This document shows, piece by piece, positions 7,728 through 10,814 of a DNA stretch of 64,000 bases. This DNA is from Bradyrhizobium sp. AZCC 1610 (GTDB taxonomy: Bacteria; Pseudomonadota; Alphaproteobacteria; Rhizobiales; Xanthobacteraceae): positions 6,667,001 through 6,731,000 of the forward strand of contig NZ_JAZHRR010000001.1 in NCBI RefSeq assembly GCF_036924515.1, read 5' to 3'. Below the pieces are notes generated by a model. The model ran no database searches. It was not told the DNA's origin and saw only the letters and a list, made by a program, of their open reading frames with translations. The position numbers and the translations under genes are program-made. Within the stretch, counting starts at the first letter, position 1, and each line of letters opens with the position of its first letter.

Positions 7728-10700
7728 ATGCCGAAATCAGCCCCCAAAGCCGCCGCGAAACCCGCTCCCGCCGCCAAAGCCCCGGCCAAGGCAGAAACCA
7801 AGGCGCCCGCCAAACAACCCGCCAAGGGCGACCATGTCTTTCTGGTCGACGGTTCCGGCTACATTTTCCGCGCCTATCACGCGTTGCCGCCGCTGAACCG
7901 CAGATCCGACGGGCTGCAGGTCAATGCCGTGCTCGGCTTCTGCAACATGCTGTGGAAGCTGTTGCGCGAGATGCCCGAGGATAACCGGCCGACGCATCTG
8001 GCGGTCGTGTTCGACAAGTCGGAAATCACGTTCCGCAACAAGCTCTACCCCGATTACAAGGCGCACCGGGCAGCGGCGCCGGACGATCTGATCCCGCAAT
8101 TTGCACTGATCCGCGAGGCGGTGCGCGCGTTTGACCTGCCCTGCCTGGAACAGGTCGGCTTCGAGGCCGACGATCTGATCGCGACCTATGTCCGCATCGC
8201 CTGCGAGCGCGGGGCTTCTGCCACCATCGTGTCGTCGGACAAGGACCTGATGCAGCTCGTGACCGATTGCGTCACCATGTACGACACCATGAAGGATCGC
8301 CGTATCGGTATTCCGGAGGTGATCGAAAAGTTCGGCGTGCCGCCGGAGAAGGTGGTCGAGGTGCAGGCGCTGGCCGGCGACTCCACCGATAATGTTCCCG
8401 GCGTGCCCGGCATCGGCGTGAAGACCGCCGCGCAATTGATCATCGAGTATGGCGATCTGGAACAACTGTTGTTCCGCGCCGGCGAGATCAAGCAGCCGAA
8501 GCGGCGCGAGGCCCTGATCGAGAACGCCGAGAAGGCGCGGATTTCGCGGCAACTGGTGCTGCTCGACGACAAGGTCGATCTCGAAGTACCGCTCGAGGAC
8601 CTCGCCGTGCACGAGCCGGATGCACGCAAGCTGATCGCCTTCCTCAAGGCGATGGAATTCTCCACCCTCACCCGCCGCGTCGCCGAATATTCGCAGATCG
8701 ATCCGGCCGACATCGAGCCGGATGCGGGCAACAAGAGCGGCGCGAGCGTTTTCGCGGTGCCGCCCTCCGGCAAGAAGCCGGAAGGCTATTCCGAGGGAGC
8801 GACGCTGTTCGATGCCCCCGGCCCCTCTTCCGCCGCGCCCGCGAGCAAGGGAGCGGTCGCGCCGGGCAAAGGAGCCGACAAGCAGGACAAGGCCGCCAGC
8901 CACAAGGGAGCGCCGATCTCGCTCGCCGCGGCGCGCGCCGAAGCCGCGCGAAAACTGCCGGTCGACCGCAGCAAGTACCAGACCATCCGCAACCTGAATG
9001 AACTCAAAGCCTGGATCGCACGCGCCTACGATGCCGGCACTTTCGCGATCGACGCCAAGGCGAGCTCCGACAATCCGATGCAAGCCGACATCTGCGGCAT
9101 CGCGCTGGCGCTGGCACCGAACGATGCCTGCTATGTGCCCCTCACCCACAAGCAATCCGGCGGCGGTGCCGGCCTGTTCGACGCCGGCCTCGCGCCCGAC
9201 CAGATCAAGGCCACTGAGGCGCTGACGGCGTTGAAGCCATTGCTGGAATCATCAGGCATTCTCAAGATCGGCTTCGACATCAAGTTCAACGCCGTGATGC
9301 TGGCGCAGCACGGTGTCACCCTGCGCAATATCGACGACGCGCAATTGATGTCGTATGCGCTCGACGCCGGACGCAACTCGCATGCGCTGGAGTCGCTCGC
9401 CGAACGCTGGTTCGGCCATGCCGTCGTCAGCTATAGCGAGCTTATCGGCAACGGCAAGAACAAGCTCACATTCGATCAGGTCGCGATCGACAGGGCGACC
9501 GCCTACTCGGCTGAAAGCGCCGACGTAATCCTGCGGCTGCATCGCGTGCTCAAGCCGCGGCTCGCCGCCGAACACATGATGACGGTCTATGAGACGCTGG
9601 AGCGGCCGCTGGTCAGCGTGCTGGCGCGGATGGAGCGGCGCGGCATTTCGATCGACCGGCAGGTGCTGGCGCGGCTGTCGGGCGAGTTCGCCCAGACCGC
9701 GGCCCGCGTCGAAGCCGAGCTTCAGGAGATCGCGGGCGAGCCGATCAATGTCGGCAGCCCCAAGCAGATCGGAGACATCCTCTTCGGCAAGATGGGCATA
9801 ACCGGAGGTACCAAGACCAAGACCGGCGCGTGGTCGACCTCGGCGCAGATCCTCGACGAACTCGCCGAACAGGGCCACGAATTTCCGAAGAAGATCCTGG
9901 AATGGCGGCAAGTGTCGAAGCTGAAGTCGACCTACACCGACGCACTCCCTCAATATGTCCATCCGCAGACCCACCGCGTCCACACCACCTACGCGCTGGC
10001 AGCGACCACCACGGGACGGCTGTCATCGAACGAGCCGAACCTGCAGAACATCCCGGTGCGTACCGAGGACGGCCGAAAAATCCGCCGCGCCTTTATCGCG
10101 ACGCCCGGCCACAAGCTGGTGTCGGCGGATTATTCGCAGATCGAATTGCGGCTGCTGGCCGAGATTGCCGATATCCCGGTGCTGAAGCAGGCGTTCCGCG
10201 ACGGGCTCGACATTCACGCCATGACGGCGTCCGAGATGTTCGGCGTGCCGATCAAGGACATGCCGGGCGAGGTGCGCCGCCGCGCGAAAGCGATCAATTT
10301 CGGCATCATCTACGGCATCTCGGCGTTCGGGCTTGCGAACCAGCTCGGCATCGCCCGCGAGGAAGCTTCCGCCTACATCAAGAAGTATTTCGAGCGCTTT
10401 CCGGGCATCCGCGCCTATATGGACGAGACGCGGGATTTCTGCCGCACCAACGGCTATGTCACGACGCTGTTCGGGCGGAAGATGTACTACCCGGACATCA
10501 AGGCCTCCAACGCGTCGGTCCGCTCCTTTAACGAGCGCGCCGCGATCAACGCGCGCCTGCAAGGCACCGCCGCCGACATCATCCGCCGCGCCATGATTCG
10601 CATGGAAGATGCGCTGGCGGAAAAGAAACTATCGGCGCAGATGCTGCTGCAGGTGCATGACGAACTGATCTTCGAGGTGCCCGACGACGAGGTAGCGGCG

Positions 10701-10814
10701 ACGTTGCCGGTGGTGCAGCACGTGATGCAGGACGCGCCGTTCCCGGCGGTGGTGCTGTCGCTGCCATTGCAGGTGGATGCGCGGGCGGCGAATAACTGGG
10801 ACGAGGCGCATTGA
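7728..10814 (+). CDS. polA: DNA polymerase I (predicted proofreading-defective)
   Basis: A 1028-residue family A polymerase for Okazaki-fragment maturation and repair. An Ala/Lys/Pro-rich extension (1-33) precedes the 5'-nuclease domain (about 35-320; DGSGYIFRAYHALP, EADDLIATY, SSDKDLMQLV). A low-complexity linker (about 330-410) leads to the 3'-5' exonuclease-like domain (about 415-610) and the polymerase domain (about 615-1028; DYSQIELRLLAE at 801, RRAKAINFGIIYG at 851, QVHDEL at 975). Polymerase and 5'-nuclease motifs are intact. In the exonuclease domain, Exo I reads IDAK (Glu to Lys444), Exo II reads DIKFN (Asp to Asn521) and Exo III reads YSAES (Asp to Ser597), so proofreading is probably lost. 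The ATG at 7728 is the only reasonable start. Confidence 0.96.
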   Translation: MPKSAPKAAAKPAPAAKAPAKAETKAPAKQPAKGDHVFLVDGSGYIFRAYHALPPLNRRSDGLQVNAVLGFCNMLWKLLREMPEDNRPTHLAVVFDKSEITFRNKLYPDYKAHRAAAPDDLIPQFALIREAVRAFDLPCLEQVGFEADDLIATYVRIACERGASATIVSSDKDLMQLVTDCVTMYDTMKDRRIGIPEVIEKFGVPPEKVVEVQALAGDSTDNVPGVPGIGVKTAAQLIIEYGDLEQLLFRAGEIKQPKRREALIENAEKARISRQLVLLDDKVDLEVPLEDLAVHEPDARKLIAFLKAMEFSTLTRRVAEYSQIDPADIEPDAGNKSGASVFAVPPSGKKPEGYSEGATLFDAPGPSSAAPASKGAVAPGKGADKQDKAASHKGAPISLAAARAEAARKLPVDRSKYQTIRNLNELKAWIARAYDAGTFAIDAKASSDNPMQADICGIALALAPNDACYVPLTHKQSGGGAGLFDAGLAPDQIKATEALTALKPLLESSGILKIGFDIKFNAVMLAQHGVTLRNIDDAQLMSYALDAGRNSHALESLAERWFGHAVVSYSELIGNGKNKLTFDQVAIDRATAYSAESADVILRLHRVLKPRLAAEHMMTVYETLERPLVSVLARMERRGISIDRQVLARLSGEFAQTAARVEAELQEIAGEPINVGSPKQIGDILFGKMGITGGTKTKTGAWSTSAQILDELAEQGHEFPKKILEWRQVSKLKSTYTDALPQYVHPQTHRVHTTYALAATTTGRLSSNEPNLQNIPVRTEDGRKIRRAFIATPGHKLVSADYSQIELRLLAEIADIPVLKQAFRDGLDIHAMTASEMFGVPIKDMPGEVRRRAKAINFGIIYGISAFGLANQLGIAREEASAYIKKYFERFPGIRAYMDETRDFCRTNGYVTTLFGRKMYYPDIKASNASVRSFNERAAINARLQGTAADIIRRAMIRMEDALAEKKLSAQMLLQVHDELIFEVPDDEVAATLPVVQHVMQDAPFPAVVLSLPLQVDARAANNWDEAH

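Follow-up and report, generated by a model that had tools for sequence, protein, structure and literature searches.

Decay of the 3′–5′ exonuclease site of DNA polymerase I across Bradyrhizobium and in related genera of its family

In teaching, proofreading by DNA polymerase I (Pol I) usually counts among the standard elements of bacterial replication fidelity, and the polA gene of Bradyrhizobium sp. AZCC 1610 raises the question of whether this enzyme still proofreads there and, if not, whether the loss belongs to one strain or to a lineage. The gene lies in the window analyzed here, a stretch of 64,000 nucleotides (contig NZ_JAZHRR010000001.1, positions 6,667,001 to 6,731,000), for which a sequence-only reading had claimed that three of the four exonuclease ligands of PolA are replaced and the enzyme cannot proofread. 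Judged from its residues, the window PolA is very probably a DNA polymerase I whose 3′–5′ exonuclease domain has turned into a non-catalytic scaffold, and the loss was shared by every Bradyrhizobium genome in which the site was read. PF02739, PF01367, PF01612, and PF00476 all exceeded their Pfam cut-offs in one chain, which identifies the protein as a bacterial PolA, and a search of the whole 7.75 Mb single-contig genome found no second PolA. The gene and its domains are as follows.

7728..10814, + strand: polA, DNA polymerase I, 1028 aa, complete; the sole PolA match in the genome
7836..8624, + strand: 5′–3′ nuclease domain, residues 37–299, intact (PF02739 and PF01367)
8976..9563, + strand: 3′–5′ exonuclease domain, residues 417–612, catalytic site decayed, fold kept (predicted)
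9660..10805, + strand: polymerase domain, residues 645–1026, intact (PF00476, 519 bits)

The polymerase and 5′-nuclease motifs, described as intact in the sequence-only reading, were all found: DYSQIELR at residue 801, RRAKAINFGIIYG at 851, and QVHDELIFEV at 975, the polymerase motifs A, B, and C, and EADDLI at 146, SSDKDL at 169, and GDSTDNVPGVPGIGVKTA at 217, the 5′-nuclease motifs. In the relatives that have lost the exonuclease site, none of the 87 near-invariant positions of the 5′-nuclease part and none of the 162 of the polymerase domain was decayed.

The residues of the exonuclease site were paired by a phmmer alignment of PolA to the Klenow chain 1d9d_A, with E. coli numbering counted from the chain start (324), which agrees with the numbers in PMC3121766 (this paper, PMC7952088, and PMC8867116 are cited here for the available parts of their texts). 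The positions of interest are listed below.

9051..9053, + strand: D442, equivalent of E. coli D355, the one metal ligand kept (alignment to Klenow)
9057..9059, + strand: K444, replacing E357 (alignment to Klenow)
9069..9071, + strand: D448, replacing L361, a residue that binds single-stranded DNA at the exonuclease site (alignment to Klenow)
9276..9278, + strand: D517, replacing N420, a gained acidic residue close to motif II (comparison with relatives)
9288..9290, + strand: N521, replacing D424 (alignment to Klenow)
9516..9518, + strand: S597, replacing D501 (alignment to Klenow)

Where a proofreading Pol I of the DEDDy type carries the ligands D-E-D-D, the window protein reads D442, K444, N521, and S597, so the replaced ligands and the first Asp as sole survivor had been placed correctly, residues and coordinates alike. 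The fifth DEDDy residue, Tyr (E. coli Y497), is present as Tyr593, and an aromatic residue is kept as Tyr569 at the equivalent of F473, the Klenow residue that stacks against the 3′ base (PMC8867116); this position is Phe or Tyr in 115 of the 116 rows with an intact site, that is, with all four ligands standing. Beyond what had been noted before, L361, which serves to bind single-stranded DNA at this site (PMC7952088), is changed, and 2 of the 18 selected exonuclease-site residues remain. With three of the four ligands and L361 gone, the site decayed, and no gained carboxylate that acts like a substitute, the residues support the claim that this PolA would not proofread. By prediction, the exonuclease domain retains its fold, and the combination of lost ligands and predicted fold matches the exonuclease-deficient Pol I type of Helicobacter pylori and Bst.

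In the genus group of the window, Bradyrhizobium, PolA was located in 143 of the 146 genomes and the site was read in 94 of these 143. None of the 94 genomes carries all four ligands, and the equivalents of E357 and D424 are kept in none of them (0/94 each). The site is also lost in all 12 named Bradyrhizobium loci, some of which come from the same genomes. The alignment across Bradyrhizobium, proposed by the sequence-only reading as a check, thus revealed a lineage-wide loss, and the alternative of a raised error rate specific to this strain is not supported, as 94 of 94 genomes share the loss; the loss belongs to the lineage, not to the strain. The decayed sites are diverse, with 28 distinct end-states among 74 Bradyrhizobium rows.

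Loss of the ligands would mean little if the carboxylates were supplied by shifted residues, the outcome that had been named as refuting a dead site. Position 517 (E. coli N420) is Asp in the window and in 59 of the 94 Bradyrhizobium rows, and also in 38 of 74 other lost rows of the family and in none of the 116 intact rows, while position 569 (the F473 equivalent) is Glu in 61 of the 94 Bradyrhizobium rows. The Asp gain at 517 is recurrent. These two were the sole exonuclease positions that were acidic in at least 60% of Bradyrhizobium and at most 20% of intact rows, and the window has Tyr at 569. Among the lost rows of the family outside Bradyrhizobium, D517 was commoner where Asp521 is kept (19/26) than where it is lost (19/48); it is not tied to the loss of Asp521 and therefore does not behave as a substitute ligand. 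The L361 equivalent is lost as well, and a site still active with shifted carboxylates is extremely improbable. Among the 94 Bradyrhizobium genomes, 80 have Lys or Arg at position 444 and 83 have an acidic residue at 442; a basic side chain may have replaced the metal ions here, as part of an internal salt bridge.

Outside Bradyrhizobium, 124 genomes of other genera of the window's family (f1) were read, of which 50 were intact and 74 were not. By genus, 17 of the 47 genera read in the family were intact only, 26 lost only, and 4 mixed (g12, g25, g34, and g38). The site stood in 40 of 45 rows of other families of the order and in 26 of 27 rows of other orders of the class, these order and class rows being mostly the best-scoring ones and not a random draw. 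The contrast of intact fractions inside and outside the genus indicates that the state of the site in the window exceeds chance. A phylum-wide screen for motif III matched in 172 of 249 genomes and in 48 of 50 from other orders of the class (hand count); it is a crude, single-motif screen with spurious matches (two outside polA in the window's genome) and serves as background only, the many genomes of other classes with no match not being scored as losses.

The site was intact in 52 of 80 named loci, including Rhizobium, Agrobacterium, Xanthobacter, Pseudolabrys, Kaistia, Bosea, and the sole named Afipia. Named losses outside Bradyrhizobium include Mesorhizobium, an Ensifer, Sinorhizobium americanum, Pseudorhizobium pelagicum, Methylopila, and Kumtagia. 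The ligand changes of Mesorhizobium concern E357 or D501 only; its rows (L064, L066, L067, L295, L296, L301–L303, and L320) show partial loss in at least two forms, E357 to Arg and D501 to Gln or His, the remainder of the site being partly decayed. In L326, a Phyllobacteriaceae metagenome PolA, D501 alone is lost and 17 of the 18 site residues are intact; either the loss is very recent or the assembly is in error.

To count the losses, PolA trees were used. The main tree was built from the 5′-nuclease and polymerase parts only, comprised 184 rows rooted on family f28, and had a bootstrap that was not settled. It took 20 of the 74 Bradyrhizobium rows and excluded the class rows, the 80 named loci, and five rows of f42 and f14, three of which had fallen inside the window's family in an earlier and faster tree of 223 rows; a further six rows, from f18, f45, and f50, lie within the family on the main tree but were counted as outside it. 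Unordered changes required 16 steps on the 184-row tree and 20 on the 223-row tree. When loss was irreversible, the resolved 184-row tree gave 17 losses, 14 of them in the family; with branches below 95 collapsed, there were at least 15 losses overall, 12 in the family, and at most 23 overall; and when each ligand could be lost once per path, 21 losses were obtained, 17 in the family. These are gene-tree counts, which polA transfer or weak resolution would alter. The counts indicate that the same exonuclease site decayed repeatedly within the family. E357 and D424 are absent from all 46 tree rows of a clade that unites Bradyrhizobium with six other genera, and therefore the losses of these two ligands are probably older than the genus Bradyrhizobium.

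Two of the mixed genera, g38 and g34, stay nearly together on the main tree (7 and 8 tips under the common node for 6 rows each), and the other two, g25 and g12, are dispersed, with common nodes spanning 61 and 21 tips; on the earlier 223-row tree, g25 formed a group (support 92). Because the PolA tree does not confirm g25 and g12, loss within a genus rests on the genome-based genus codes. Congeners are also scattered on the PolA tree in the cases of L140/L166 (g13), L141/L190 (g30), L117 (g28), and L256 (g12), where polA transfer, poor resolution, or wrongly assigned assemblies may be the cause; the scatter of g25 could likewise reflect transfer or poor resolution.

A repeated loss could have been made harmless if another 3′–5′ exonuclease proofreads for Pol I and renders the site dispensable. 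The window's genome has three PF00929 matches, and the two that were read are DnaQ genes with complete-looking DEDDh motifs. Among the members of the family, however, the count of DnaQ-like (PF00929) genes was lower, not higher, in those with a lost site (mean 1.68, n = 77) than in intact ones (2.04, n = 50; p 0.008, kinship ignored). In plain group means that likewise ignore kinship, genomes were larger in the lost group (p 0.048) and Ku (PF02735) was weakly more frequent (p 0.08). In independent pairs on the tree, a comparison of low power (nine pairs on supported branches), neither DnaQ-like count nor Ku, genome size, or third-position GC was associated with loss. Judged from the DnaQ-like genes, compensation by another 3′–5′ exonuclease is quite improbable. 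In five of the six genomes drawn from the genus g20 (G164, G205, G226, G244, and G260), polA and a Ku gene are separated by approximately 0.2–1.1 kb; in the sixth (G275), the distance is approximately 5.5 kb.

Selection may also have acted on the polymerase itself, if a Pol I free of proofreading was favored for passing damaged bases, such as abasic sites and oxidized pyrimidines, during repair. The clustering of losses is in keeping with this, as the family accounts for 47% of the exposed branch length but for 17 of the 21 losses (p 0.002, post hoc and from a non-random sample), and so is the Pol I of H. pylori, a non-proofreading enzyme that copies past lesions and plays a part in mutation (PMC3121766). 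On the other hand, no shared change was found elsewhere among the near-invariant positions of PolA, no correlate emerged from DnaQ-like count, Ku, genome size, or third-position GC, and the many scattered end-states of the Bradyrhizobium site resemble drift after loss. Adaptive loss is therefore possible yet unlikely, and relaxed constraint is the simplest reading of the repeated loss. The boldest combination, in which one alphaproteobacterial family repeatedly discarded proofreading, even within genera, under selection for a damage-passing Pol I, with the domain kept structurally and the Bradyrhizobium site perhaps rebuilt around a salt bridge, is doubtful when all its parts are taken jointly.

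Several observations weigh against a completely dead and anciently lost site. The D355 equivalent is kept in 24 and the D501 equivalent in 14 of the 94 Bradyrhizobium genomes, and some trace of metal binding may be left at the site, D442 being kept in the window PolA. Among the lost named loci, two still have 15 and 17 of the 18 site residues in place, so the groups overlap somewhat, and the contrast between them is partly built in, as the rows that define the classes also served to pick the residue sets. The 46-row clade has a bootstrap of 96 and a low SH-aLRT of 45.

Among known systems, the Pol I of H. pylori (HP1470) is similar in being a bona fide PolA with an exonuclease fold that is likely preserved (PMC3121766). 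It lacks the equivalents of D355, D424, and D501, while the close relative H. hepaticus has the site; in contrast to the window PolA, which keeps D355 and has lost E357, it has lost D355, and it was assayed in vitro. The same source describes no exonuclease activity of this enzyme on mismatched primers, extension of mismatches, and accurate synthesis on undamaged DNA, in a species with no homologs of translesion polymerases and no evidence of an SOS response. The Pol I large fragment of Bacillus (Geobacillus) stearothermophilus (Bst), naturally exonuclease-deficient, is also a close known system. E. coli Pol I and its Klenow fragment share with the window protein the domain order, the fold (predicted here), and the polymerase and 5′-nuclease motifs, but E. 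coli has four ligands and proofreads.

By analogy with these enzymes, the window Pol I would fill Okazaki and repair gaps and remove 5′ ends normally without correcting its own 3′ end, and mismatch extension and the passage of small lesions should be easier for it than for E. coli Pol I. Mismatches that it makes would either be extended or fall to DnaQ, the intact proofreader of the replicase, acting in trans, and to mismatch repair, and the loss would therefore be tolerated. The exonuclease domain would be under selection solely for its structural role in the Klenow core. A fidelity cost is nevertheless to be expected, presumably borne by mismatch repair, because loss of the Pol I exonuclease in E. 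coli gave a mutator phenotype with lagging-strand bias (work cited in PMC3121766).

Exonuclease-deficient Pol I itself is already known, with examples in every bacterial clade (PMC3121766). No report of the loss of PolA proofreading in Bradyrhizobium or its family was present among the matches listed from the open-access literature, which is weak evidence of novelty. What is new is the scale and grain, namely every Bradyrhizobium read, repeated losses in one family, and decay that is confined to the exonuclease site and spares the predicted fold. A family with a dozen or more separate losses, differing between related genera and congeneric species, is a natural experiment on the worth of proofreading: close relatives that have or lack the site can be compared for the rate and spectrum of mutation, lagging-strand bias, and lesion bypass. 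A Klenow-type proofreader should not be assumed in Bradyrhizobium, Mesorhizobium, and some Ensifer/Sinorhizobium.
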